DNA from: an uncultured Chlorobiaceae bacterium
Lineage (GTDB): Bacteria > Bacteroidota > Chlorobiia > Chlorobiales > Chlorobiaceae
Length of the DNA: 64,000 bases
NCBI GenBank assembly: GCA_903822595.1
Contig: CAIJPS010000057.1
Coordinates: 1-64,000 of the forward strand
Direction: 5' to 3'
Part shown: positions 47,754 through 64,000 of the stretch, one piece after another
Position numbering within the stretch: the first letter of the stretch is position 1
How the letters are laid out: each line of letters opens with the position of its first letter
The notes under the pieces: model-generated
Databases searched by the model: none
The model's input: the letters and a program-made list of their open reading frames with translations, nothing else
What the model was told of the DNA's origin: nothing
Program-made: the position numbers and the translations under genes

Positions 47754-47942
47754 CTTTTGTTCTCTCCTGGAAATGATTGGGGTTTCGATTCAATTTGTGT
47801 TTCGGTTCAAGTACGACAGCGAAGGCTCAATATATTAACTGCCGCATTTTTTTTATAACTAATTTGTCAAGGAACGGTGAACCCTGACTTGCATCAGAAG
47901 CAATTCATCCCCGCATCCTCGATGACGCTACTCCATTGCCCG

Positions 47943-47978
47943 ATACCCTCGGTTTGTGTCAGGGTATTGCCATTTTTT
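47943..47978 (+). terminator. Plus-strand hairpin with T tract at the MFS remnant
   Basis: ATACCCT (47943-47949) pairs with AGGGTAT (47961-47967) and TTTTTT follows at 47973-47978. It overlaps the stop of the minus-strand MFS remnant. On the plus strand the nearest gene is cimA, 550 bases away. Confidence 0.4.
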
Positions 47979-48111
47979 GAGTCTGCCCTTTGCTGTACAC
48001 AATCAGTGCCATAAAGAGGATTGTCGAGAGGGCAGCCATCGCTGTACCAAAATAAAAGGTGGCCGCAGGTGAAACTCGCTCCCAAAGCAGACCGCCAATC
48101 AAACTGGCGTG
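47959..48111 (-). pseudogene. C-terminal remnant of an MFS transporter
   Basis: About 50 codons read ASLIGGLLWERVSPAATFYF, GTAMAALSTILFMAL and a short tail. This matches the last two membrane helices and the intervening GGLLWE loop of major-facilitator permeases. Homology ends at about 48111, and the codons upstream (48112-48162) are unrelated. The remaining eleven or so helices are absent, so this is a broken gene. Confidence 0.65.
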
Positions 48112-48379
48112 CAAGGTGGCAAGCAAACTCGCTCTGTTTTCGTGGACAGGATAAGAAGTCATACCTTACCAAAAAAGGAGGTATGAAAAAATGGGAGAAA
48201 ATCAAACCGGCCGCAATGCATCATTTTTTCCACATCCAAGTGGTACAGTTTTTTGGGCTCACGTCCTTGGGGTCCACTTCATGATTCTGGTACAGGCTTA
48301 CTCGTTTCTCACAGCCAATTGCAAAAGCATTGATTGATGTACAACCCCCATTACGTCAAATGGCTGTTACAGCCAGTGC
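48112..48379. other. Intergenic scar between the MFS remnant and the large-protein operon
   Basis: The stretch begins where MFS homology stops and holds TGTTTTCGTGGACA (48135-48148) followed by an AGGAGG-ATG-like sequence at 48176-48184, a layout seen at insertion-sequence left ends. No transposase follows. It marks the downstream edge of the 15.6-kb large-protein operon. No gene is supported. Confidence 0.25.
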
Positions 48380-50197
48380 TTATTCATTGTTATTGTTTTT
48401 TGAATTCTTTATTTGATCAAATGCCAGGCCACTGCTTCCTTCGCCCCGACCGGTTTGTTTACTCATGCCTAACCATACAAAGACCTCTCCATTGATCCAG
48501 CGGGTGCGTTGAAAGGATTGTGTTACCCGTATACCCATACGGGGCACCTCTTCTTCATGGACATAAAATGCAGTGGGAACAGTTCCATCCAGTCCTTCAC
48601 GCAAAATGGAGGTCAACGGTTTTATTTTTGCTGGTGCTAAAGTGTCTCCTTCCAGTATTCGAATCATGGACGCCCGCTGTAATTGTATTTCCCTGTTATT
48701 ACCATCAAGATGCACAGGTACAAATGGTATCCAATGTTCCGGCACTTCTGTCATCGCCTGGTAATAAATTGGCGCAGCAAAAGGTTCATATTCAGGCATT
48801 TTATTACCATTCACCAGGTTTTGTTGAAATTGTCGCACTCGTAACCCGGCTTCGCCTCCTTTGTCGCCCATACCTGTAGCTAAATGAATGGTTTGTTCAA
48901 TACCCCACACCATATTGGCTACTTCATCGCGGATCATTACTATTTCTTCCAGCGGATCGCTTTCATGCACCTTGATGGCGGCAGGTGCGAGGAACAGGGT
49001 ATTATCCTGCATAGCCCCTTTCATTTTAAACATGCTCCATACATTGCCAACCTTGCCTTCCTCTTCGGTTGCTTTGATCCAGAGGGTTTCACCAAAATTA
49101 TTTTTAACCATCAAACCTTCTACGTTGGCTAATGAATCGATGGGCAACGTGTAGGGCACCATAAACCAGTCGTTGGCGAATACAAGGCCGAATTCTATCA
49201 GTAACAATTTTGAAATATCGGTAGTGGATGGTTTTACATCTCCAAAACTTGTTTTACCGTCTTCGAATTTCCACCAGCGAGTATCGGGCATGCCTTCAAA
49301 TTGCACATGGCTCGGAATAAAGGAATTAGTAAACTTATTTTTTACAGGCGCTCCGGGAGTTGGATGTTTTCTTTGTATGTCGAAGGCGTACCAATCCAAA
49401 TGACCATGATAGTATTCATTCGCAGTTAATAATTTATCTTCCCTGTCAGAAGAGGCGGTACAATCAAATTGGTATTCCAGCCTTTCAGGTAACCAGGCAT
49501 CATTATTTTCATCGTCGGGCTGGTAAAATTGGGTGGCATACCACTGCATGAAGCCGCTTCCCAAATTATTTAATGCCGTCATATCCGGATCCACATTAAT
49601 GACACTCTCTGAAGCGGATTGACCTGCCTCCAATGCTTCATAAAAAGCATATCCATCCATGCAGCGTCCACTGATGGCACTACAGGTTTTCCAAACCTCA
49701 GGGTGCGCATAAATATGATCTTCGCTTCGTGACAAGGCAGGTAAATCAAAAGGGTAGGCGTGAATAAACTCCATTTCATAAAGCAAGCCTTTGGATTTGA
49801 TAAGTTTCAACCAATACCGGCCCATCTGCAGTCGTATATCAATACTTATTTTTTTATTGATCCGGTTAAACGGAATTTTCTTTTGTTCCGCCTTTACCTC
49901 CATCGGGATATTTTTTTCATAAGTCTGCACCGGGTGTGTGGCAGCCTGGTAATGAGTAAGCTGTGAAGAGCTTATATGTATTTTAGCGAATACGGGGCTA
50001 CCCGCATCATCGCCCTGAAATTCACCCATCTGCCATTGTTTTGTCAGCATCCATAATGCATCCCTCACTTCGGCACGCATAGCCCGGTCGAAATTGTGTG
50101 TGCGGGGTCGTCCTTCCAATCGGTTCCACATGAGGGAGGTTGGAAATTTTGTCTGCAGGAGAGCCTCGCGGATATTTTCTACATGATAACTTGCCAT
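48380..50197 (-). CDS. Large-protein operon, 605-aa protein of unknown function
   Basis: A 605-residue soluble protein. Strong motif blocks: RAEVRDALWMLTKQWQMGEF at residues 41-60, continuing QGDDAGSP; TRWWKFEDGKTSFGDV near 315-330; LLLIEFGLVFANDWFMVPY after it; REIQLQRASM near 495; and a C-terminal RTRWINGEVFVWLG and TGRGEGSSGLAFD. I associate this pattern with uncharacterised proteins in other phyla, always beside other giant genes, but I cannot name a function or domain. No signal peptide or membrane helix. It is the last gene of the operon, 3 bases after the 1920-aa gene. Confidence 0.85.
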   Translation of the reverse strand: MASYHVENIREALLQTKFPTSLMWNRLEGRPRTHNFDRAMRAEVRDALWMLTKQWQMGEFQGDDAGSPVFAKIHISSSQLTHYQAATHPVQTYEKNIPMEVKAEQKKIPFNRINKKISIDIRLQMGRYWLKLIKSKGLLYEMEFIHAYPFDLPALSRSEDHIYAHPEVWKTCSAISGRCMDGYAFYEALEAGQSASESVINVDPDMTALNNLGSGFMQWYATQFYQPDDENNDAWLPERLEYQFDCTASSDREDKLLTANEYYHGHLDWYAFDIQRKHPTPGAPVKNKFTNSFIPSHVQFEGMPDTRWWKFEDGKTSFGDVKPSTTDISKLLLIEFGLVFANDWFMVPYTLPIDSLANVEGLMVKNNFGETLWIKATEEEGKVGNVWSMFKMKGAMQDNTLFLAPAAIKVHESDPLEEIVMIRDEVANMVWGIEQTIHLATGMGDKGGEAGLRVRQFQQNLVNGNKMPEYEPFAAPIYYQAMTEVPEHWIPFVPVHLDGNNREIQLQRASMIRILEGDTLAPAKIKPLTSILREGLDGTVPTAFYVHEEEVPRMGIRVTQSFQRTRWINGEVFVWLGMSKQTGRGEGSSGLAFDQIKNSKNNNNE

Positions 50198-50200
50198 CTC

Positions 50201-53200
50201 TTATGGTGCTTTTACGTAATTATAGATTTTATTATTCATGGAGAGGTTACTGGCTACCGTGATCCAATGGAGGCTGACAGCCATCATGGTACTGGGCAGG
50301 AACTGGCCATAATTGCTTCCTTCCAATTTATTGGGTTCCACTGCACGTTTCTTAGCCAACTGTAAGGTTTCATCCAATGCATCTTCAAGGTCTTTCCATT
50401 GCCAATGCCCAATATGCTGTGGTGGCGTTACCAATAACATCGTTTGCGGAGGTTCACTATTGGGTTGGTCGTAATGGAATGTTATACCCGTGGTTTCTGT
50501 TTCATTGGGGATTACTTCTGTCCAGTCGTCGATAATAATTCCGCATTGGGGATTCGCCTTATTGAAGGTTGTTGCAAAATGAGTAGAGTACAATAATTTA
50601 TCGCCGTTGATTTTAAAAGTATCAGAAGGATCCTTTTCATCACGAAACTTCAAAGCCAGCCAGCGGTCATTCGTGGCAAATGGAAATTGTAACGGAACTA
50701 TATCCAAAGAAGCTCCTGCATTAAAGGCCCGTGTTAAAAAAGATATATGCTCCCACTCATGCACTTTTGCTTTTACACGAGCAACACCACCAAGCCAGTC
50801 TTCTACCGGTAAGATGTGGTGATCTTTAGTTTTCGAGAATTGTAACAGCTCTTCGCTGATGCCGGCATTATAGGCTTTTTCAAATTCATTCCCGGTCTCT
50901 GTGTCAAGTGTAAACTGTGGTATCAATAAAGCTTCATCGCCCAGTATCAACTGGCCGGCTTTCAACAAGGCATTTATTTTATCTCTAATGTTTAACAGTG
51001 CACCCGCATCGGTTATCGCAGTGGTGCAATCTGCAATGGCTTTATTGCCTGCACCAAGGATATTGCTGAATGCAGTCATGATATCCTCTTTCAATTGTGC
51101 CAGCAAAACTTTTTCCGATGACAAGTCATTGCGCTCTTCCTTCTGATTAAATTTAATGGCGTCGAAAGTGGACAAGGTTGCCAGCGAAGTCTCTACATCC
51201 TGGATGAAATCAGTCACCTTCGTTTTGGCATTGCTGGCATGTGATTGTAGGGTAACCAGCAAATTGTCGAAAGCGGTTTTCTTTGGATCAATAACGTTGG
51301 TTTTATAGTCGGTAAAAACGGCAGGCAGTGGTGTGGTGATCCCAATGGAAATAATTTGTTCTGCCTGTTGCAATAGTTTGAACTGTTCACTGGCAATGCC
51401 GGCCGGGTTATAACCTGTCATGATCGCGGCAAAATCAGTTTGTTTTTGTACCCATCGGTCAATCACCGCCTGGCATTTATCCAAAACAGTGGTATAAACC
51501 ATTTGAACTGCCTGGTGCATAAAGCCGGTACCGGTTTGTTGGCACCTGAATAATGCTATGTCCTGGAATCGGGTGCATGCATTTTGAACCAGGCTATCAA
51601 TATTGGCCAGGTCGGCTACATAACTGTCAAGGGCATTTCCATAATCAGTTTTTAAAGCGGCAATGATAGCCGGGTTCCCAATAACGCCGAGGGTGGTTTC
51701 CAAAACCGCCAACTGGTTATTTTTTGTATCGGTTGTGTTGTCCTTTACATACGCCTTCAAATCCAGTTCCATTTGCCCCGCCAGACTGGCAAGGAAAGCT
51801 TCATCGTTGATTTGCGCCTGCACACTGCCCTTGAATGTATCGGTGAGAGAGCGGATGGAAACAGCGCCAGCCTCCAAGCCGCTGAGAATGTTTAGAGCCA
51901 GTTGCAAGGCATCTCTGCTGTCCTCTATACGCTGTTTCAATAACGCATCATTAAAAACACCCGATACGGTTTCACCGGCTGATGATAACGCCAGGTGCGA
52001 GGGCTGCAGATACCGGTTCCCGCGAAGAATTTTTCGCAGGCTTCCAACCAGCGACGATAATTCAAAGAAGGATATTTTACTCCGGTCCGCGGTATCAACG
52101 ATCTCCGTGTATTTAATAAAGACCTTTGTATCCGGGTGCATGGCCACATTGTAACGCACATAATTGACAATCCTGTCATCGACTTCACTCATGGCCTGCG
52201 CGGTATCCGTTTGCAAAACATAGAGAAGATCCATTGCATCCAGGCCAATTTCCTGCTGGGAAACGGTGATGGTTTTTTCGGGAATTACAGGCGTTGAATA
52301 GGCTACTTTACAAAGCGTGTTGGATGGTGATGGAAGATTGGCAACCAGCCATTCGCTGAGCGCAGGTTCTGCAGCGGTACGAGGATGAGCTCCAACCGGA
52401 GCGACGGCGATTGCATTCAGTTGTAATCCAACACGATGAGTAAGAGTGATACCGGTTCTTGGAGTGTCCATCACTTCCACATCAGGCGGGTAATTTCCTT
52501 TTGAGAACGCATCGGCATTTCCGGCTGCACGCGTCATGTTGCCTTTGACGGTTTGATAAACCTGTTCTGCGATCACCAGATCACTCACGGCATCATTGAT
52601 CTCTGCAATGGCCTTTAATCCATCACTGATCGCTTTTGCTTCAGCGGCGGTCGCAGCCGGTAAACCCTTGGATGCCGCCACTCCGAAAGGATAGCTCTTT
52701 ACTCCATTCTCCTGTACAAACTGTATGAATTTAAGACCGTCAATGACATTACGGGCTTCAATGGTTTCAATGCTGGCATCATCATCACTTGTATCAGCCA
52801 GTTTGTTTGCCACAAGTGGAAATACTTTGCGCAGCGGGTAAATAAATTTGTCTACTTCGCCCAGACCCAAACTATACTTATCATGCAGGCCGCGCTCAAA
52901 GTGATAACCGAGCAAAGCCGCAAGGGATTGCCCGTTACGAATCCCTTCCAGAAAACTATCAGCTATACGCACACGATCTGAACTTAAATCAAGAGCAAAG
53001 GGGTTTCCGCTTCCTGCCGATTTATTTGAATCGTATGCATTGCGTAAAATGGCTGCCGTTGCAGCCTGGTTAATGGATGGCGCATGAATAAAACCCAGAT
53101 TGGTTGAATCACTCACTAAAGAAGATCCATCACCAGGTTTGAATATGGCATCAAGTTCTGCATTTAAAAGAACGGGTTGCAACACCTTGTTTTCCGGCTT

Positions 53201-55963
53201 TACATCGAGTAACCAGCCATAAGCGCCAAGGTAAATTCCTTTCGATTTTTTGTTGCCTCCTGTTGGCGATGTTCTTCTTGATTCCTGTAATTTGAAATTT
53301 ACCAAAGCCGTGATCCAGGCGTCGAGGCGATAGTTGCAACAATCCAGATGTTCTGTAAACAACCGTTCCAATCGGGCGGTTGGCGTTTGCGCCAGAACCT
53401 TGAGGGCTTCAATCGTTTCATTTAAACGGATCGTTTCTTTTCGCAATGCCAATACTTCCGACCGGTAAATATGTTCGGCCAAAACCATAGTATTATTGCC
53501 GGTAATATCAGGGTATGCCGAGTATAAATGTTCGAACTTGCTTCTTCCCCCGGAGTTTTCTTCCACACTGATTAAATCCGGGTCAAAGTAAACCGACTTG
53601 TCTGCAATTTTCTTATTGGCGAGCAGCACCCTTGTTGCGGCATCCGATTGTGCCTGCATCAATGAATGCCTGAGCATGATGTACAGCAAGGCTGTAGGTG
53701 CATTGTTGCCGCCAAAGTTTTCAATCCTGACTGTATTCGCATCCGATACTGAAAGCCATTCAATGTAGTTCAGCCCGCTCACCGAATAATCCCTGACGGG
53801 TGTTATTTCAGAATCAGGAACGTCGTCCACCAACGGACCATGTAATGTATTGGGTGTGCCGAAAAAGAATTTCTTTAAAATAGGAAGATCCAGACCTGCC
53901 GTATTAATGCCAAGACTTGTTAAAATAGTTTGGCCGCGTTGTGCTATGGCGTCTGCAATTAAAGCACCAAATAATGGCCCGGCGGTAAGCGCAATCTGGT
54001 TGTACAATTGCGTTATTGTTTGTGCATACCGCTGGTGATATTCTGCAGAATGTGCATGCAAACCAATCACATCCAATAATGTCTGGTGCGGATCGCCGCC
54101 AGTTTGACCTACATGCGGAACCGTGCTGATAAAAGAGTTCCATTCAGCATCCAGCTTCATGAGCAAGGTATACAGCCTTGCAATAAACGGCGACCGGGCA
54201 ACACTCACCGCCGTGTTGTTTTGTGAAAAATTCAGCCGCGAATAAACAGAAACCGGCAGTATGCCATAGGGTTGTTTCCCGATACGAATGGCAGGTATGG
54301 CTCCTCTCCCGGAAACATAGGACGCAAAAAATTGTTTGGTATCATTGATGTCGCTATCGCTGAATAGCGGGTGCATCATTTCCTCCATAAAATACCCCAT
54401 GGTGGCGGGAAACAATGCCTTATTCATGGCATTGGCTTCCAACTGGTCCGTTCCGTTGGCATTAGGAACTAATTTCAGTATGGAAGGATCTATTCCGAGG
54501 GCATCAGCGAAACGTTCGCCATCCGATTTTAATTCAAGGTTTTCCGTTTCATCAAAATTCTCACGGTGTTTGAAAATGCGCTCATAACTGTCATCGGGAT
54601 CATCAATCCATGAATAGCCTGCTGGCAGATCTTCGGTATTATTGGTCGGCGTCCCCTGTTTGAGTAAGCCAAAACCATTCTTGCTGTAGAAATGATTGGT
54701 CAACAAGGCTTCCAGTTCTGTTTTACCCTGTGTTTCATTGGCGGTAAAACGAATGCCGATCACTTTCAAACTGTCGAATCCGTTACTGTACTCCTGCGCT
54801 GACAAATGAATGATTGTTGCCATACCGGCCTGCACGGCTTTGTCAAAATCGACCATCCATTGTAAATCCTCGTTGACGATCAAATTGCCTTGGTCATCTT
54901 TCTTCACCTGCTCGGCCTCCGGTAACGAGGGATCAGGGCCTACCGGTAAATGATCCGTAACGCCATGGGCAAATAACTCCGTGCGTTTGGTGGCGCCCCT
55001 GGTCAGGATGCAAACAAATTTATCCGGCAATGATGTTGCCACGGGCGCTTCAGACCAGGAGAAAGCTTTGGGTGTATAGTCCGGTAATTGAAGCCGGTGA
55101 ACAAAAACCTTCGATTTCATCATTCCTGCCGGCACGTTATCCGTAATGTTTTCCGGGATAAAATCCTTCTTGATTTCATCTGCCAGCGAGGGGCCGACAG
55201 CAGCAATCAAATTATTTTGTGCGGCCTGAATTTTAACAACATCCTTGTTCGCCAACCAATAATCAATCCAATAATCACTTGCTGAACGAAACTGCGGATC
55301 AGTAAGAACCATATCGGATGTAATAATTAAATATTGTTCCGAATCGTCTGCTTTAACCGGTGGGTTTACGGAGGGTTTGTATTCTGTGATTAAATGAGCA
55401 GAACGTCCGCTTCCATGACTGTTCACCAAACTTGTCCATGCACCACGCTCGGCGGATTCAACGCCGCCAGCCTTCCATAACTCAATCCAGAATTGTTGCG
55501 TATTGCTGAGTTCCGATTCCGACAATAAGGTTTCCTTATGCTGAATACTGCAATCATCGGGATAAACCCTGAGCCATAACTGGTGCTGGTTATGAACGAT
55601 CTTGAATCGAATTTCAAGACGCAAGGGGAATAATAATATCGGGTAGTTATCATTGAGCTCCCCGATGGCTGTCACCGGGTTTAATTGAGGCAGGAACGAC
55701 TGTACTTGTTTTCGATAGCCGTCTCTTACATTGTTATAATGTGATTTTGCCACATCAACCTGTCCCGACAGCTCATTTCGCTGCTCTGTAAATTGCGTCT
55801 CCGCCTGACCGACCGCAGCGGCATCAATTCCGCGAGCAGTTCTATCAAAACTGCGTTCAGCGGATTTTAATTTGGCATTTGCCTGTTGCAGCATAAATTT
55901 AGCCTGCAATGCGTTGCCGTAGTACTGCTGTGCTGCCTGTTGAATTTGCTTTAAATCACTCAT
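50201..55963 (-). CDS. Large-protein operon, 1920-aa protein of unknown function
   Basis: A 1920-residue protein, among the largest in the window. Residues 1-95 are a charged, Ala/Gln-rich coiled coil. Then a mixed alpha/beta part with YPILLFPLRLEIRF near 105-120, the motif IRIGKQPYGILPVSVYSRL near residue 556, long helical stretches (about 1350-1700) and a C-terminal block with DDWTEVIP, ETTGITFHYDQPN near 1820 and RAVEPNKLEG. It has no signal peptide and few Cys. The QPYGILPV and FHYDQPN signatures recur, as far as I recall, in giant hypothetical proteins of Actinobacteria and others. Function unknown; size, coiled coil and partners suggest a structural or scaffold role (inference). Confidence 0.88.
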   Translation of the reverse strand: MSDLKQIQQAAQQYYGNALQAKFMLQQANAKLKSAERSFDRTARGIDAAAVGQAETQFTEQRNELSGQVDVAKSHYNNVRDGYRKQVQSFLPQLNPVTAIGELNDNYPILLFPLRLEIRFKIVHNQHQLWLRVYPDDCSIQHKETLLSESELSNTQQFWIELWKAGGVESAERGAWTSLVNSHGSGRSAHLITEYKPSVNPPVKADDSEQYLIITSDMVLTDPQFRSASDYWIDYWLANKDVVKIQAAQNNLIAAVGPSLADEIKKDFIPENITDNVPAGMMKSKVFVHRLQLPDYTPKAFSWSEAPVATSLPDKFVCILTRGATKRTELFAHGVTDHLPVGPDPSLPEAEQVKKDDQGNLIVNEDLQWMVDFDKAVQAGMATIIHLSAQEYSNGFDSLKVIGIRFTANETQGKTELEALLTNHFYSKNGFGLLKQGTPTNNTEDLPAGYSWIDDPDDSYERIFKHRENFDETENLELKSDGERFADALGIDPSILKLVPNANGTDQLEANAMNKALFPATMGYFMEEMMHPLFSDSDINDTKQFFASYVSGRGAIPAIRIGKQPYGILPVSVYSRLNFSQNNTAVSVARSPFIARLYTLLMKLDAEWNSFISTVPHVGQTGGDPHQTLLDVIGLHAHSAEYHQRYAQTITQLYNQIALTAGPLFGALIADAIAQRGQTILTSLGINTAGLDLPILKKFFFGTPNTLHGPLVDDVPDSEITPVRDYSVSGLNYIEWLSVSDANTVRIENFGGNNAPTALLYIMLRHSLMQAQSDAATRVLLANKKIADKSVYFDPDLISVEENSGGRSKFEHLYSAYPDITGNNTMVLAEHIYRSEVLALRKETIRLNETIEALKVLAQTPTARLERLFTEHLDCCNYRLDAWITALVNFKLQESRRTSPTGGNKKSKGIYLGAYGWLLDVKPENKVLQPVLLNAELDAIFKPGDGSSLVSDSTNLGFIHAPSINQAATAAILRNAYDSNKSAGSGNPFALDLSSDRVRIADSFLEGIRNGQSLAALLGYHFERGLHDKYSLGLGEVDKFIYPLRKVFPLVANKLADTSDDDASIETIEARNVIDGLKFIQFVQENGVKSYPFGVAASKGLPAATAAEAKAISDGLKAIAEINDAVSDLVIAEQVYQTVKGNMTRAAGNADAFSKGNYPPDVEVMDTPRTGITLTHRVGLQLNAIAVAPVGAHPRTAAEPALSEWLVANLPSPSNTLCKVAYSTPVIPEKTITVSQQEIGLDAMDLLYVLQTDTAQAMSEVDDRIVNYVRYNVAMHPDTKVFIKYTEIVDTADRSKISFFELSSLVGSLRKILRGNRYLQPSHLALSSAGETVSGVFNDALLKQRIEDSRDALQLALNILSGLEAGAVSIRSLTDTFKGSVQAQINDEAFLASLAGQMELDLKAYVKDNTTDTKNNQLAVLETTLGVIGNPAIIAALKTDYGNALDSYVADLANIDSLVQNACTRFQDIALFRCQQTGTGFMHQAVQMVYTTVLDKCQAVIDRWVQKQTDFAAIMTGYNPAGIASEQFKLLQQAEQIISIGITTPLPAVFTDYKTNVIDPKKTAFDNLLVTLQSHASNAKTKVTDFIQDVETSLATLSTFDAIKFNQKEERNDLSSEKVLLAQLKEDIMTAFSNILGAGNKAIADCTTAITDAGALLNIRDKINALLKAGQLILGDEALLIPQFTLDTETGNEFEKAYNAGISEELLQFSKTKDHHILPVEDWLGGVARVKAKVHEWEHISFLTRAFNAGASLDIVPLQFPFATNDRWLALKFRDEKDPSDTFKINGDKLLYSTHFATTFNKANPQCGIIIDDWTEVIPNETETTGITFHYDQPNSEPPQTMLLVTPPQHIGHWQWKDLEDALDETLQLAKKRAVEPNKLEGSNYGQFLPSTMMAVSLHWITVASNLSMNNKIYNYVKAP

Positions 55964-55971
55964 TGATATAT

Positions 55972-58900
55972 CTATTTAGGTAACATCCTCGATGCATGTA
56001 CGCCGACCAGAACCGGCACCTGGTAAAGTATATAGGCCAATTCAGCCGCGTTGGTGGAGGGATTCCAGTTCGCCTGTACGTCATCCTGATTGTCTTTGTT
56101 TTCCTGGTCCAGACCCGAGTTATACTTCTGGAGAACGATCGTTTTATTCATGGTGATACAAGTACCATCCTCTGTCCCGATATCCGGCCAGCTCAAATTA
56201 TTCCAGTTAATTAACCGCTCCACCCCATTTTCGTTTCTGGCTTTTTCAATATCCAGTCCAAACCGCGGTTCACCCGGTCTTTCCTTGATCACAAAAAACC
56301 ATCCCGGATCATCCGCAGTTGATGCGGGATTCAATGTCCCTCTGGCTTCCTCATCGTCCAGATCAAATCCAAAGAAGTACACATCCGGTTCCACTTTCGC
56401 TTCAAACAACGGGGTCTTTATTTTACTCGTCGGCGGGTTGAGTCCTTCCGCAGGAGTAAGCTCTGCAAATCGTCTTTCTTCTTTTATATCAGGGGTATTG
56501 CTTTTATTCAATCCCCAATCGGCTTTGTTGGCATAAATAACAGCGGTCGGGTATTTTTTCAACAATTCACCGCGAATCACTAATACCAATTGTGTTTTCC
56601 CGGTAAGGGCCCGTTGATTATGTTGTCCCAGTTCATTTTTTAAGGGTGATGCAGGGTTACCGGGATCGGACAAACTGGTATCTATTCTTGACCATGTATG
56701 AATTTTTGGAATATCTCTCAACTGTTCTTTTATATTCGCAGGAACCGGTTGAGGCGGTAAAAAGCTTTTAACATCCCAAAACTGGCGGAAGCAGGATCCC
56801 CGCTGATCGGTTGGATATTCACGCCACAAAAGTTCTCTCGACATTTCGTGGTTAATACCCACCATGTACGACTCAATGAATTTCTGGTTATTCTCCAGTA
56901 ACGTAATGCTGTTCTCAGGGATCAGTTTGATATTCGGTAAAAACAACTCCGACGACATATCTGCGAGCGGCTTGTACATCGGCACATCAATTTCAGGATA
57001 GACCATGACCGGTGCAAAGAACTCCCTGAAATTGTCTTTGATGCGGGCCGGAATATTGATCCCCGCTAATGTTCGTTTGGGAATGGTAATATTTGGATGT
57101 ATTGATTTTACCAGGGAAATAACTACATCGCTGAAATTAATTTGCTTACGAACAGGCTCATCAAAATGAATATTCGTCAACGTGAAAACATCGGTCAATG
57201 CTGCCTTGAAGCGGGTGGCTTCCGCGCTATCCGGACCGCTTCCTGTCACGAATGGCTTTGGAGCATCAGGATGGGAAATGGTAAAGTCAGGACTGTTTGG
57301 CATTTGCTGAACAGCCGCCGGTGTAAAATTATCCGGCGACAATACCGCTGCATTTTTTATTTGTTGCTTCCACTTTTTGAGCAGGTAATACAACTTGAAG
57401 CCAAGGGCGGACAATCCAAAGCATAGGAAAGCAAGAAGGATTACCGTGATAAATACCAATCCAAGAAGAAACAATAAAATAGCCAAGCCGAGCAAAAGAT
57501 AAATGAGATTATTGCTCTTTGTTAAAGAATCCCGGATATCCTGCGGAATAGTATTCGGCTGAAACTGCCCGGCGATATCAGAATAATTAATGCCTCCTTT
57601 TAGATCTGTTTTAGGAGGAACAATAATGACTTCCCCCTTGTTTATTCGTTCCGCCAGGTTAAATGGGGTGGCAGTTGCCGTAAAATTCAGTTTCCGCATA
57701 AAGCGTCCGCGTGGACGCGTAATGCTCCGGAATGCACCGCTGGCAACGGCATTTGGAATTTTACTGGTTTCAAATTGCTTATGAACGGTGAGTGCCTGGT
57801 ACATGACGCGTTTTTGAACAGGCGCCGTAAATGAATACGCTTTGTTCGTTTGCAGGGGCAGCAAATGATTTGTGTACCAGCTCAATGAAACTTCCTTTGC
57901 AACCTGTGCCCAGCGAATTTTATTATTCGCATCAATCACAGCACCCACCTGTTCCCAGGCGGCTTGCATATACTCTTCCTGGCCCTTTTGAATGACTTTG
58001 GTGCCCAGGCCCGACGCAACTCTGAACCGGGGGTCCAGATTTAATTCATGAACCCAGTTTTTGTCATGCGGGAGGTAACCACCGGAGGTATCTTTTAAAA
58101 GGCGTTCCTGCAATGCATGCCAACGTCCGTACAAGGGTGATGTGATTACAGGATCCGGATCACCGCTGACGAAATCCATTTCTGAAACAATGCCTGCATC
58201 CTTGTTGGCATCTTCGATGGACTTAAATGCTTTTGCATAATCATCTGCCAGGTTCACGCGGTTCGCCATGGCTTCTGTAAAAGGCGCCGGGTAAGGATTT
58301 TCATCCCACTGATCGTATTTGATCACCTCTTCTTTATCCGGTTCAAGCATGGTATCGAAGGGCACGCGCAAGGCGCCGCCCAGTTTCAATACACCGCCTA
58401 AATCTTCATTGGTAATGCCGGGCAGGTTTGAACCGGGATGAATGACATCGATATCACGAACACCCACTTTTTTATCCGACGGTTGCGGCTTAAGCAAATT
58501 CACCAGGTATTCAAAATCGCCCGTATTCCCGGTTCTGAAATACCAGCGGTAATAGTAAGGGAATTCACTATTGACTTCTGCACTCCAGGCGGAAGCGGTC
58601 GCAGCAGTGTCAGGAGGTATATCGTACCCTAATCCCGCCAATCTCCCCGTTTCAAAACTTGGAATCAGGAACGCGTGGTACGCTTTGTTCTCCATCAGCT
58701 TACGGGGGCATATGATCCGGGAATATGCATTATCCGGATCCTTGGAAATAACGGTATTTATTTCGTTGTTCACGCTACCTGCATCGGCCGTATTTGGTAA
58801 CGCCCCGTTGGAAAGATCTTTATTGATATGAACGTGCGCCCATGCCCACAACTCCTCCGGCTTGGGAAAAACATCCGCCACCTTTATACCATCCTTGAAT

Positions 58901-59343
58901 TTGAAATATGGAAGGGGTTTACCCTCCATATTTTTCCCGTTTTCAAATTCATCCTCACTTAATACGACCAGGGTTAACCAGGGGCGCAGACGATCGCCAT
59001 TCACTTTTGCCGGTGTATATCGCCAGGGAAAATCCTCTTCGTAAAAATCAATATAGGGCAGGTAATTGGGTTCAAAATTCGTGATCCAGTTTCGTGGTTC
59101 AACTTTCACGACCGTCTTCGAATCAATGCCTACAATATCCCCGGGACCGAATAGTTCCACATTTTGAACGACGTCTCCATCGGCGCCCGCCTTTCCGTCC
59201 AACAACGTTGGAGTTACTTTCAAATGAACGTCAATTTTAGCGCGCAGTTTAACCGCAACATCATTATCGTTCTGAGGTATGCTGTTGGATAGTCCCTGGC
59301 GTAGCCAGGGTAAAAAAGAGTAATTGGCTAATGTGTCGCTCAT
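55972..59343 (-). CDS. Large-protein operon, 1123-aa protein with central membrane segment
   Basis: A 1123-residue protein. N terminus: NYSFLPWLRQGLSN, then NFEPNYLPYIDFYEEDFPW and RLRPWLTLVVLSEDEF, EELWAWAHVHIN, a Cys-containing SRIICPRKL and YYYRWYFRTGNTGDFEYL. Around residues 612-655 there is a strongly hydrophobic stretch (LIYLLLGLAILLFLLGLVFI and the next 20 residues) that can form two membrane helices, while the rest is soluble. The C-terminal half is less distinctive. Function unknown. Its start overlaps the stop of the 1156-aa gene by 4 bases (ATGA), so the two are translationally coupled. The membrane segment suggests the assembly may dock on or insert into a membrane. Confidence 0.86.
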   Translation of the reverse strand: MSDTLANYSFLPWLRQGLSNSIPQNDNDVAVKLRAKIDVHLKVTPTLLDGKAGADGDVVQNVELFGPGDIVGIDSKTVVKVEPRNWITNFEPNYLPYIDFYEEDFPWRYTPAKVNGDRLRPWLTLVVLSEDEFENGKNMEGKPLPYFKFKDGIKVADVFPKPEELWAWAHVHINKDLSNGALPNTADAGSVNNEINTVISKDPDNAYSRIICPRKLMENKAYHAFLIPSFETGRLAGLGYDIPPDTAATASAWSAEVNSEFPYYYRWYFRTGNTGDFEYLVNLLKPQPSDKKVGVRDIDVIHPGSNLPGITNEDLGGVLKLGGALRVPFDTMLEPDKEEVIKYDQWDENPYPAPFTEAMANRVNLADDYAKAFKSIEDANKDAGIVSEMDFVSGDPDPVITSPLYGRWHALQERLLKDTSGGYLPHDKNWVHELNLDPRFRVASGLGTKVIQKGQEEYMQAAWEQVGAVIDANNKIRWAQVAKEVSLSWYTNHLLPLQTNKAYSFTAPVQKRVMYQALTVHKQFETSKIPNAVASGAFRSITRPRGRFMRKLNFTATATPFNLAERINKGEVIIVPPKTDLKGGINYSDIAGQFQPNTIPQDIRDSLTKSNNLIYLLLGLAILLFLLGLVFITVILLAFLCFGLSALGFKLYYLLKKWKQQIKNAAVLSPDNFTPAAVQQMPNSPDFTISHPDAPKPFVTGSGPDSAEATRFKAALTDVFTLTNIHFDEPVRKQINFSDVVISLVKSIHPNITIPKRTLAGINIPARIKDNFREFFAPVMVYPEIDVPMYKPLADMSSELFLPNIKLIPENSITLLENNQKFIESYMVGINHEMSRELLWREYPTDQRGSCFRQFWDVKSFLPPQPVPANIKEQLRDIPKIHTWSRIDTSLSDPGNPASPLKNELGQHNQRALTGKTQLVLVIRGELLKKYPTAVIYANKADWGLNKSNTPDIKEERRFAELTPAEGLNPPTSKIKTPLFEAKVEPDVYFFGFDLDDEEARGTLNPASTADDPGWFFVIKERPGEPRFGLDIEKARNENGVERLINWNNLSWPDIGTEDGTCITMNKTIVLQKYNSGLDQENKDNQDDVQANWNPSTNAAELAYILYQVPVLVGVHASRMLPK

Positions 59344-62300
59344 ATTGCCTGCAATTCATGGTTGGGAATAATGTGCAGATCCTTTTTCAGGTTGGGGTTG
59401 GCCTTTAGCTGCTGGTTCAAAAACGTATGGGCTTCCATTTCACTGGCAAATGTTGCGCCTGCAGTAAACGCTTTGTTGTTCGCCTGGTAGGCAACGCTAT
59501 ACCCTTCCTGTGCCACCGTCATTTTTTCGTCGAACGGTTGCATTGCAGATTGGTGGCTTTTTGAAAGAACGGATTTGGAAACACTGCCTCCCTTTAGGAA
59601 ATGGGTAAAGAGAACATGATGCGGGCGGTAGAATTTGCCTCTCTTAAACGGCTTCGTTGGTTCTTTATCGACGATGGTTATTTCATATTCAACATTCTTC
59701 CTGACCATTTTTCCATTTTGGGCTTCGTTATTGCCGGAAGAGATGCTTGCACCGCCGGGCATTTGCTCAAAGGATGGTTTGGATAATTTTTCCGCATCAC
59801 TCATTGTCTGATATTGTGCGCGGGCAAAATATTCCTTTACATCGTTCATGTGTAACTTGTTTCCATCCACATCCGCGCTGGTAATTTCAACCTTTTTGAC
59901 ATCTTCTGCCTGGTTGCTGCCTACTTTATCGAACTCCACCTTGAGCGGAATTAATTTTTGCTGAACAACCAGGGAACCGGCGGGATGCAATACAAGGTTT
60001 GTTTCATCCTCTTTTATTTTCCGCAGTGTGATATGTAAATTTTTACCGGTACTTAAGACCGTACTCCAGTTCTCCCGCTTATTCAATTCCTTGATAAAGT
60101 CCGGCAGTATTTTAACCTTTGGTAAGGATGTATTTTTAGAATCGCCCCAACTGATATCAAAGTCAGCGGATATTTCAAAGAAGAGGATCGACACACTACC
60201 GGTGCCTTTTGCCCTCCATGGAGTTGGACCCTCGAGTGACATCCTTACGTGTACCGTCAAAACATCGATACCTGCCGCACTCAGCGTAAAGTTGGCGGAT
60301 ACGGCAATAATAAAGTAGAATGGATTAAACTGGAACAGCGCATCAAAACCAATGTCTCCCTTGATGGCGCATACTGCCAGGTCGAAACTTAATTCTGCCT
60401 TCGCGCCGAATTGAACGGTATTCGATGTTATTGCCTGGTAGCATTCAACCCTGATTTTGGCAATCGAAGTGTTGAGAATATTTATGGCTAAACGCTTTAA
60501 TGCCGGCAAAGCCAATGGTGGTGGTGTGTATGAAGGATGGAAGCCGCCGATGGTTATCAGGAAATCCGGGCTGTCGCCCCATTTCAGCCGAACGGCCATG
60601 TCACCTTCCAGCGTCATGAACAGTATGAAGGAATCGTACAGGCTGGCATCGAAGGTGAGCATCTTCTTATCGAAATCCAACGTGCCTACGAATAATACCT
60701 GTATTTGTATCAGAGGAATGTGTTCTTCCGGAAGGGCTATTTTTAATATCCCCAGAATCGCAATATTGCCGGGTATTTCAATAATCACTCCAAGCGACAA
60801 GCTGATGAGCGTCGGGGTGCCCCAGCCGATCTTTGCCATTGGCCCGATCAGGAATTTTCCTTCATACGGCGGAAAAATTGCTTTCAGATCGCTGATGATA
60901 CGGGCGGCATTGGCAACCACATTTTGTGGAAACATAATGCTTGTAACCGCCCCATTGTGTACTGCGTTGCGCAACGGGTCAAGCAACATGGTCCGGTTCA
61001 GACCTAATAAACCACCTACTGCATTTAAGGTAAATCCATATCCCAGTTGGAAAGGAGGAGTAAATTCTGCCGTGATGATAATGAGCAGTGAAAAACCCTT
61101 GCTGCCGTCAGGCATTTTCGTCGTAATGAGCCCGATGGCTTTTGCGGAAATAAACCCGGCGATGGTTAATTCCAAAGCGCCGGCATATTCTTCATTGTCA
61201 AAATCAAAGAAGAGGTAACCGCCGCCCATCACTGCGCCTGCATTAATGGAAAGACCGACACCATTCGGCGGCTGGAAGCCCAGCGCGAAATTGGCCGGGC
61301 CCATATTACCGCCGCCATCGGGAAAACTCAGGGTGAGTTTAATGCCAATATTTTCAACTACCGCCTGTAACGGTCCTAATGCAATATTGAAAGTGGTAGC
61401 TGCTACCAATGGGAACGTGCCATCCACCGGGGTTAAGCGAAGCAAAAGACTCTCGATATTCAAGGGTCCCAGGCTCAAGTGCAATGGAATGGATATTTCC
61501 AATCCGCCGCTCCCCCTGAAATAAAATCCATTTTTCGAAGTAAAGCCCGCCCCGAGTTCGAACTCCATTTCCATATGAATGCCGGAAAGCAGCTTTTCAA
61601 TAAAGCCGTCGGCACCTTCTACACCAACTACTATTTTCCCATGTTTAATATCAAACTCAATACCAAAATCAGTAGCGGTTTGTTTTTTGGAGAAGAAAAC
61701 AGAGAACTCTATCCCTTTTACGGAAAGATGTGACGTAGTGGCTGAACCGAAAATGAACGTTTCGATATCCTTGCCGGCTTTCTTTTTGAGAGAAACTTTT
61801 ATTTCAAATTCGCCAGCGGAACCGGGCGCGGTAAATAAGTTCGTGATGAAATCCAAATTCAACGGCGGACGAAGGACGATACCAAGGCCGTTGTCTATAC
61901 CGGCTTTTATTTCCAATTCAATATCAAAATCTTCATTGAGGCTGAAAGGCAGTGTGGAACCGCCAACGGTATAAGGCATTAACGCCAATCCCTTTGGTTT
62001 CCCCGCGTGTGCTTCAGCTCCCGAAATCACGACGCCAAACTGGCTGAATAATTCGGGTGAGTTTCCTGCCTGGAAAACCGGTATCCGAATTTCCTTGGCG
62101 CCTGCGGCGGCATTCCCTAAACCGGTTTTTGATTTTTGATTTTGATCGTAGATGCCTCCCGGTAAAATAAAGCCGCGCAACAGTTTTTCTAAACGGGTCA
62201 GAAACAGATCGCTGTTAAAATTACTCTTCCAGTGATAAATTTCTTCCGAAAGATCCAAAGGATTATTTACATATTTGGGGAGGCGGTCCCACCATATTTT

Positions 62301-62810
62301 TCGCAGTGTAAAGTCCGGTTGAAAAATAGCGGCATTGGCTGTTTTGTCTATTTCATCAACTGCACCCACCAACAGCAGGAAATAATAAGGCCCGTTGTAA
62401 CAGGTTTCCAAATAAACGGCAACAATATAATCCAGAAGACGCCGTGGTATTTCATCGATGGGAGCGCTGGCAAAAAAGGCGGCAGTGGCTGCACCGGCGC
62501 TTTCCATTTGTTGCGCCATATCGGCAATCTCAACGCAAACCTCGGCTATTTTGGATGCCAACTGTATGACGGCTTTTAATTTGTCTTCATCAGTGCTCGC
62601 ATCGGCAAGGGAGCGAATGTCATCGGCAATGGCGGCAACCTTGCCGATCAGTGAAACCGGGATGCCGGTAAAATTTTGCGCGGCTGGCAGCGCGTAACCT
62701 AATTTCTTCATCAGGTCGGTTGCCTTGGCGGCATTAGTCACATCGGAAAGCGGGTGAATCGCTCTCGAAATTTCCAGTAACGCGCTATTCAGAAGGTTAT
62801 CGTCAGGCAT
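59340..62810 (-). CDS. Large-protein operon, 1156-aa DUF6603-like protein
   Basis: A 1156-residue protein. After a helical N-terminal part (1-230) comes a long series of alternating hydrophobic beta strands (about 330-850), for example GGGYLFFDFDNEEYAGALEL near 525, GYGFTLNAVGGLLGLNRTML, FLIGPMAKIGWGTPTLISLS and LTFDASLYDSFILFMTLEGD. The run of strands separated by Gly/Asp turns and the GWGTPT block match, from memory, the family called DUF6603; this should be checked by search. No signal peptide is seen, so it is not a standard outer-membrane barrel despite its strand pattern. The C-terminal 300 residues are charged and mixed. Function unknown. Confidence 0.85.
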   Translation of the reverse strand: MPDDNLLNSALLEISRAIHPLSDVTNAAKATDLMKKLGYALPAAQNFTGIPVSLIGKVAAIADDIRSLADASTDEDKLKAVIQLASKIAEVCVEIADMAQQMESAGAATAAFFASAPIDEIPRRLLDYIVAVYLETCYNGPYYFLLLVGAVDEIDKTANAAIFQPDFTLRKIWWDRLPKYVNNPLDLSEEIYHWKSNFNSDLFLTRLEKLLRGFILPGGIYDQNQKSKTGLGNAAAGAKEIRIPVFQAGNSPELFSQFGVVISGAEAHAGKPKGLALMPYTVGGSTLPFSLNEDFDIELEIKAGIDNGLGIVLRPPLNLDFITNLFTAPGSAGEFEIKVSLKKKAGKDIETFIFGSATTSHLSVKGIEFSVFFSKKQTATDFGIEFDIKHGKIVVGVEGADGFIEKLLSGIHMEMEFELGAGFTSKNGFYFRGSGGLEISIPLHLSLGPLNIESLLLRLTPVDGTFPLVAATTFNIALGPLQAVVENIGIKLTLSFPDGGGNMGPANFALGFQPPNGVGLSINAGAVMGGGYLFFDFDNEEYAGALELTIAGFISAKAIGLITTKMPDGSKGFSLLIIITAEFTPPFQLGYGFTLNAVGGLLGLNRTMLLDPLRNAVHNGAVTSIMFPQNVVANAARIISDLKAIFPPYEGKFLIGPMAKIGWGTPTLISLSLGVIIEIPGNIAILGILKIALPEEHIPLIQIQVLFVGTLDFDKKMLTFDASLYDSFILFMTLEGDMAVRLKWGDSPDFLITIGGFHPSYTPPPLALPALKRLAINILNTSIAKIRVECYQAITSNTVQFGAKAELSFDLAVCAIKGDIGFDALFQFNPFYFIIAVSANFTLSAAGIDVLTVHVRMSLEGPTPWRAKGTGSVSILFFEISADFDISWGDSKNTSLPKVKILPDFIKELNKRENWSTVLSTGKNLHITLRKIKEDETNLVLHPAGSLVVQQKLIPLKVEFDKVGSNQAEDVKKVEITSADVDGNKLHMNDVKEYFARAQYQTMSDAEKLSKPSFEQMPGGASISSGNNEAQNGKMVRKNVEYEITIVDKEPTKPFKRGKFYRPHHVLFTHFLKGGSVSKSVLSKSHQSAMQPFDEKMTVAQEGYSVAYQANNKAFTAGATFASEMEAHTFLNQQLKANPNLKKDLHIIPNHELQAI

Positions 62811-62813
62811 CGG

Positions 62814-64000
62814 TTAAGCCGGTTCGGTTTTAATATGAGCATGAAATTCTTCGGAAGGATTGACCGCTGTTTGTGAGTCGTTATGATCAATGGCTAAACG
62901 CGAGAATGCCAAGCCTTTTCCCAGATCGGTAAATGTGTCATCATTTGGATCTGCGGTTCCCTGGGTGTTGAGGATAATGTTGCCTGTCGGATTAATACTG
63001 TCTATTGCGGCAAGCGTTGCGGCGGGAAGCGGCCCTTCGAAATGAATTTTTTTGAATGCTTTCAATGCATTTGTTTGAAGATCAGTATAATACAATAGCC
63101 TGGTATCGCCTTCGCGGGAAGCTGGTTGAAGAATAAGGGGTAATCCAATATCAAGCATATACCTGTAACCGGCTCGGGAATCAGTCAACCTTGTTTTGAT
63201 GCTTGTAACGAGTGGTGTAATACCCGATAAGGTTACAAGCTTTTGTTTCAGTAGATCGATACATGCAGTTAAATGCGCTGTTGTGATCGGTGTCGGAGCT
63301 GGAGGTAATGGGGCAGACAAAGTGGTTGACAACGTTGTCAATGCAGTGAGTTGTGTTTGCAGCTCCGGTTGCGGAGTTGCATCGGTAAGAGGTGTAACTG
63401 CGGTTTGAATACCCGCCAGGGTTGCAATAGACGGGAATGAGTCTGTTTGAAAGGTAGTGCAATCAGCCGCTGTGGGGGTTGCTGTTTGGTCAATATGAAA
63501 AATGCTTTTTATCGTGCCTATCGCATCCGCGTAATTCTGTGTAGCCAACGCTGTAAGGCGTGCTGATTCCATGCCAATTGGAGGTAGTAAGTTTCGCCAT
63601 GACAAAGCGATCAGGTCAAAGGCATTTCCATTGAAAAGGTTGATCCAGAAAGAGATTTGAGAATTGATCCCAATACGGCCCGCCCAGGCTGAATATTCTC
63701 TTTGAACATCAATGCCTGTGAGCGGAGTGGCTGGAATACCATTCTTGAAATATCCATCCATGCCCGATTCAGCTGTGGTGGTGTAATTCCCGATGGCGCC
63801 CATTTCCTGGTACCATTCCGGCCCGCTGATTGTAGGTTCAGACCCGGGGTTGCCGAAAAAGGAGCGAAGTCCCTGCATAAAGTTCTGGTCCTGCCCAATC
63901 CTGCATCCGCGTATATCAACAAAACTGTTATCGAGCCGATTTTTTACTTTTGCCAGGTTGCTCCGGAAAGTATTATGATTTTGAAGATACACGGAGGAGA
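62814..64000 (-). CDS. Large-protein operon, first visible gene (partial at the window edge)
   Basis: At least 392 residues; the frame stays open to the right edge. A GTG at 63992 could be a start, but the eight visible bases before it contain no ribosome site, and the segment FVDIRGCRIGQDQNFMQGLR near residue 24 looks like the middle of a domain rather than an N terminus, so I treat the gene as truncated by the window. The middle (about 190-260) is a low-complexity Thr/Ala/Pro/Leu stretch; the end (RAGYRYMLDIGLPLILQP, KIHFEGPLP) is globular. Function unknown. It ends 3 bases before the 1156-aa gene. Confidence 0.75.
   Translation of the reverse strand, partial: SSVYLQNHNTFRSNLAKVKNRLDNSFVDIRGCRIGQDQNFMQGLRSFFGNPGSEPTISGPEWYQEMGAIGNYTTTAESGMDGYFKNGIPATPLTGIDVQREYSAWAGRIGINSQISFWINLFNGNAFDLIALSWRNLLPPIGMESARLTALATQNYADAIGTIKSIFHIDQTATPTAADCTTFQTDSFPSIATLAGIQTAVTPLTDATPQPELQTQLTALTTLSTTLSAPLPPAPTPITTAHLTACIDLLKQKLVTLSGITPLVTSIKTRLTDSRAGYRYMLDIGLPLILQPASREGDTRLLYYTDLQTNALKAFKKIHFEGPLPAATLAAIDSINPTGNIILNTQGTADPNDDTFTDLGKGLAFSRLAIDHNDSQTAVNPSEEFHAHIKTEPA

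Follow-up and report, generated by a model that had tools for sequence, protein, structure and literature searches.

A mobile operon of giant proteins with an exchangeable first gene, found from green sulfur bacteria to haloarchaea

Four consecutive genes for very large proteins (P2 to P5) are supported as one unit conserved across phyla, and the gene that precedes them is a variable slot filled by unrelated enzymes, often proteases, which is new here. We interpret the whole as one mobile system, a four-protein core with an exchangeable hydrolase, whose most likely role is biological conflict (anti-phage or inter-microbial); we hold this interpretation tentatively, at rather less than even odds. 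Our confidence in the core-plus-effector logic is moderate and in the specific purpose of the system low. An earlier note on the same DNA had picked out the operon, and overlooked both the exchangeable slot of the first gene and a second, reduced type of locus.

An operon of five large genes

The window, that is, the whole stretch of DNA analysed (64,000 nucleotides), comprises positions 1 to 64,000 of contig CAIJPS010000057.1, from the uncultured Chlorobiaceae bacterium assembly GCA_903822595.1. The host genome encodes the FMO antenna protein, a marker of green sulfur bacteria (Chlorobiaceae; Bacteroidota in GTDB). We named the genes in the order of their transcription: P1 (1052 aa), P2 (1156), P3 (1123), P4 (1920) and P5 (605). 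All five lie on the minus strand, and the frame lengths and spacings given in the earlier note were all borne out (P1/P2 +3, P2/P3 –4, P3/P4 +8 and P4/P5 +3 bases). Following the locus to the right, as that note had proposed, we found that the contig runs 4078 bases past the window, to 68,078, and that P1, of which the window holds only the part at 62814..64000 (minus strand), is whole there, with an ATG start (contig 62814-65972; L002:815-3973), giving the operon a length of 17.6 kb. The claim of intact frames over more than 5,000 codons holds for 5856 codons without an internal stop; since the same frames are also conserved in other phyla, at 21-68% identity, they are not chance openings.

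The core genes follow one another on the minus strand as P2 (59340..62810), P3 (55972..59343), P4 (50201..55963) and P5 (48380..50197), core genes 1 to 4; homologues of P5 are likewise last in the same operon across phyla. The motif blocks quoted earlier (GEFQGDDAGSP, QPYGILPV, FHYDQPN, FLPWLRQG and GWGTPT) were all found, and conserved alignment columns hold most of them; one block of P5, QWQMGEFQGDDAGSP (49994..50038, minus strand), is largely invariant among Chlorobiaceae, Balneolaceae, Dyadobacter and Mariniflexile. A promoter scan found sites no more numerous than in shuffled sequence.

Families and predicted structure of the core proteins

The resemblance to DUF6603 suggested earlier proved to be full membership for P2: its match to Pfam PF20248 (E = 9.8e–134; domain at 59793..61484, minus strand) scores 447 bits against a curated cut-off of 27 and spans profile positions 1-501 of 502. 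DUF6603 has no known function and went unmentioned in the open-access literature searched. It is the sole convincing family match for the operon. P3, P4, P5 and the window part of P1 had nothing credible in Pfam, NCBIfam or PHROG, leaving P3-P5 outside Pfam beside a full-length DUF6603 member; complete P1 had no Pfam family match either. In PADLOC-DB 2.0 the strongest match for any of P1-P5, to PD-T4-9_C, had E = 0.004 and was not credible, and PDB sequence searches with P5, P2 and P3 profiles returned chance-level matches only. No domain typical of NTPases, sensors, nucleases or toxins was found in the core.

The long beta-strand series described earlier does appear in P2, as a run at aa ~410-890 behind a helical N-terminal part, in the region of the DUF6603 domain, but only in an AF2 model of low confidence (mean pLDDT 46.7); the model of P5, from a four-sequence alignment, had a mean pLDDT of 29.9. 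One could take the P2 series for an AsmA/TamB-like groove handling lipid or another hydrophobic ligand, gated by P3-P5, and the hydrophobic stretch present in some P3 proteins (below) would suit such a role. We consider this improbable, given the low confidence of the P2 model and the lack of any AsmA, TamB or chorein match in Pfam, and it leaves the exchangeable hydrolase unexplained. Compared with the PDB by Foldseek, the P2 model likewise had no match at E ≤ 0.001; the hits were scattered and resembled beta-barrels, and we did not use them to infer a fold.

P2 to P5 are conserved as one unit

The proposal that these genes make one system hung on whether their homologues keep together elsewhere, and the gene-neighbourhood analysis found P2-P3-P4-P5 adjacent and in the same order across phyla and domains. 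Within Bacteroidota this order occurs in Balneolaceae (L003), Dyadobacter (L004), Mariniflexile (L007) and six further loci (L031-L033 and L035-L037), and beyond them in Chloroflexota (L068/69), Gemmatirosa of the Gemmatimonadota (L079), Paraburkholderia (L081), Nocardia (L082), Streptomyces (L041, L044 and L045) and haloarchaea (L042, L046 and L080). Rhizobium (L043) keeps the order with P3 and P4 split in two, as does a Methylococcaceae bin (L006) with P5 partly on another contig. Among the loci of this kind (type A) that we examined, the P4 family went undetected only in an orphan on a Streptomyces anthocyanicus plasmid (L040:19986-21791), where P5 occurs without the rest of the core, at 41% identity to the window P5 over 98% of its length.

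Co-occurrence was equally tight. Of 395 Bacteroidota genomes, 16 encode DUF6603; P5 is encoded by 7, every one of which is among those 16 (P = 4e–11); among 72,556 plasmid records, all 13 that carry DUF6603 are among the 14 that carry P5. Pairwise distances of P2-P5 across 19 loci correlate at r = 0.83-0.95, unmatched in 5000 permutations, supporting co-evolution of the four. Profile comparison found no domain common to the core proteins, as might be expected of unrelated genes that are adjacent by chance and share no system; we give this next to no credence, because the constancy of gene order from one phylum to another and into Archaea, the joint occurrence of the genes and the correlation of their distances refute it for P2-P5. 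Their products probably form one physical complex.

Two haloarchaeal loci (L046 and L042) have a P5 with two to three lamin tail domains and a P4 enlarged to 2300-2600 aa. P4, P5 and part of P2 also lie on a contig from human faeces (L047) that was deposited under the name 'Bacteriophage sp.', a phage label we doubt.

A reduced, second type of locus

In nine Bacteroidota loci, which we call type B (L025-L030, L034, L038 and L039), the DUF6603 protein adjoins a shorter protein that has only the N-terminal domain of P3. In the window this domain takes up about 270-290 aa (58480..59343, minus strand, with approximate borders), and it is the sole part of P3 kept in these loci, where it scores 113-169 bits over profile positions of about 23-274 (hhalign probability 95%). 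Every DUF6603 locus with a resolved neighbourhood has a protein with this domain alongside. P3 is conserved beside P2 in both locus types, and since type B loci keep only these two elements we regard DUF6603 plus the P3 N-terminal domain as the common denominator. Usually a further protein family of 1200-1400 aa (P4b) follows or accompanies them; considered as a possible relative of P4, P3 or P5, it showed no detectable relation to any.

Among the proteins in type B slots are metallo-beta-lactamase-fold proteins and a DUF4135 protein (lanthipeptide synthetase-type; L025:458-2455), and at one locus the slot position is held by a phage tail collar domain protein. Upstream of DUF6603 in another (L030:500-6917) stands a tandem duplicate of ~1060-aa proteins of no assigned family, 43% identical to each other. 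One type B locus (L034) belongs to the genus of the window and has a 1021-aa beta-propeller protein upstream, so that two versions of the system occur in one genus.

The first position of the operon is a variable slot

Where P1 lies in the window, other loci have enzymes of unrelated families. S8 subtilases stand upstream of P2 in three loci (L032, L033 and L035; E about 1e–42 to 1e–43), and in Nocardia an S8 gene lies directly downstream of P5. Trypsin-like proteases fill the slot in Dyadobacter and, two in each, in Gemmatirosa and Paraburkholderia; PhoD-like phosphatases fill it in L007, L042 and L068, with a homologue in Streptomyces L041. No slot enzyme could be recognised in L031, L037 and L043-L046. 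Inspected by eye, the S8 and trypsin-like slot proteins and most of the PhoD-like ones seem to have kept their catalytic motifs. The exception is the Streptomyces protein (L041:1648-6192), which carries a peptidoglycan-binding domain and has metal-binding motifs that look degenerate. On the core tree a minimum of 8 changes of slot type is needed for the 14 labelled loci, as many as shuffled labels require (mean 8.2), which indicates that slot genes are exchanged independently of the core.

The P1 type of slot protein occurs in the window and in the Balneolaceae and Methylococcaceae loci, which have its only homologues; no relative was found on plasmids. A two-sequence alignment shows a conserved His (IVTH) and Cys (DIRGC), and P1 is possibly a His/Cys peptidase. 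Assignment to the caspase/CHAT-type peptidases would draw on one His and one Cys in two sequences with no family match, and we treat it as a guess.

A C-terminal domain common to unrelated slot proteases

The S8 and trypsin-like slot proteases have unrelated folds and nevertheless end in the same domain of ~120 aa, with the core motif W-x-R-x-x-G-P. Its profile also matches two Gemmatirosa proteases that had been left out of profile building (72 bits), and a 128-aa stand-alone protein in the Dyadobacter locus. It was convincing in four of the 395 Bacteroidota genomes, three times within the operon and once on a stand-alone trypsin-like protease (P = 1e–5); the latter (L086:1483-2895) is in a genome without the core. 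A weak match in a further genome (G385, E = 9e–4) was dropped as chance, its reading frame resembling a CRP-type regulator. No Pfam family and no PDB entry matched the domain, and P1 of the window is without it. We infer that the domain docks the enzyme to the core; hmmsearch and hhalign found no copy of it in P2-P5, so that docking is not backed by a homotypic copy in the core.

Horizontal transfer and surroundings of the locus

The earlier suggestion that the operon is maintained by selection and was acquired by transfer is supported. The core tree cuts across taxonomy, and relatives have no operon at this site. The tree, from a concatenated alignment of 4029 columns, is a quick one with some long branches, and for that reason we used only strongly supported nearby groupings: a Chloroflexota locus pairs with a Bacteroidota locus, and Gemmatirosa and Methylococcaceae are nested among Bacteroidota. 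Many carriers of the core are plasmids. Six relatives of the same genus are 89-95% identical to the window at the neighbouring citramalate synthase gene; their similarity ends at ~47,865, 0.5 kb short of the operon, and in the flank compared they have no trace of the operon at that site. The region 47865-48380 of the window is likely the left border region of a transferred segment.

To the right of P1 lies an intact AbiEi antitoxin gene (L002:5385-5996, contig 67384-67995; PADLOC E = 1e–74), beside which its AbiEii partner is broken into two separate family fragments in different frames, as well as a doubtful remnant of an integrase core. A remnant of an MFS transporter, suspected by eye to the left of the operon, was unsupported by Pfam. 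GC content gives no foreign mark (46.0% in the operon, 48.1% elsewhere on the contig).

Cellular location

The notion of an envelope-associated machine found no support. No core protein scanned has a hydrophobic, signal-like N-terminal segment. The single membrane segment noted before corresponds to a 43-residue hydrophobic stretch of P3 (aa 610-652; 57388..57516, minus strand) that by its length could possibly form a membrane hairpin, but not all family members have it: a Kyte-Doolittle scan found it in about half of the loci, in Chlorobiaceae/Bacteroidota-like members, and not in Mariniflexile, Dyadobacter, Streptomyces or haloarchaea. With signal segments lacking, and the P3 stretch absent from Streptomyces and from the haloarchaeal carriers, a machine bound to outer membrane or peptidoglycan is unlikely as a general role.

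Some lineages have accessory domains that could point to an extracellular role: lamin tail domains in haloarchaeal P5, FG-GAP in the P3 of one Streptomyces and peptidoglycan-binding in a slot protein, each in a single lineage, and an Ig-like protein near the operon of another Streptomyces. The products might then build a surface or extracellular structure (a matrix, fibre or adhesin scaffold) with adhesion-type domains, released without a Sec signal, the slot enzymes processing the structure or its target; the phage collar domain found at a single type B locus and the secreted-type enzyme classes in the slot (S8, PhoD) fit as well. We think this unlikely, though the most plausible of the alternatives, for the accessory domains are lineage-specific, being found neither in the window nor in most members, the lack of N-terminal signals extends to every core protein scanned, and the same core is found in diderm bacteria and haloarchaea alike.

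Comparison with known systems and proposed function

Effector-associated-domain (EAD) conflict systems combine a conserved core with interchangeable effectors, caspase-like, trypsin-like or others, to which a small non-enzymatic domain is fused (eLife 2020, PMC7159879). The operon resembles them in that effectors are exchanged around a core and the S8 and trypsin-like slot proteins share their C-terminal domain. It differs in that P1-P5 have, by Pfam, no NTPase core (MoxR/vWA, GTPase or STAND) and in that the C-terminal domain is not a known Pfam EAD and has no homotypic copy in the core. Because the EAD-like pattern here comes without the defining NTPase core and homotypic copy, we propose a new kind of system. 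System 3 of the same study, in which NucA is combined with trypsin or subtilase peptidases, likewise uses trypsin-like and S8 peptidases in one kind of operon; the operon described here has no NucA nuclease, and its core is four giant proteins.

A second comparison is with protein-delivery machines. Extracellular contractile injection systems and Tc complexes are large multi-gene units with giant proteins that lack signal peptides and with exchangeable enzymatic cargo. The operon might accordingly encode a released delivery particle of this sort, whose giant structural proteins would come together in the cytosol and whose cargo would be the slot enzyme. In agreement with this, its giant proteins lack signal peptides, its enzyme gene is interchangeable, it is mobile and sporadically distributed, and at one type B locus a phage tail collar domain protein takes the slot position. 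Pfam and PHROG nevertheless gave no convincing match to sheath, tube, baseplate, AAA ATPase or Tc proteins, and a viral contig collection scanned for P5 and P3 held no relatives; we judge such a particle quite unlikely.

We return to the conflict role, which we infer for the operon as a whole. In the mechanism we propose, the four giant signal-peptide-less proteins P2-P5 are the conserved core and probably an assembly, to which the first gene would supply an exchangeable hydrolase, be it a subtilase, a trypsin-like protease, a PhoD-like phosphatase or the P1 of the window. The C-terminal domain common to the two unrelated protease types would dock the enzyme to the core, which may hold, position, restrain or trigger it, and the system would spread by transfer because it is helpful in conflict. 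Several results weigh against this reading: no NTPase, sensor, nuclease or toxin domains and no PADLOC match in the core, no homotypic copy of the C-terminal domain there, slots in which no enzyme was recognised, the degenerate motifs of the Streptomyces PhoD-like protein, P1 without a family match, and accessory domains that hint at an extracellular role. At slightly longer odds, the operon may represent an undescribed class of mobile giant-protein machine in Bacteria and Archaea, a four-protein assembly loaded through a docking domain with interchangeable hydrolases, for defence or inter-microbial attack.

That some 15-20 kb has been kept intact from haloarchaea to green sulfur bacteria, while passing between phyla and onto plasmids, argues for a strong and general selective advantage. 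For what had been a set of 'proteins of unknown function', the exchange of the slot enzyme and the domain common to its proteases offer a testable hypothesis, namely, that the core binds and controls the slot enzyme.
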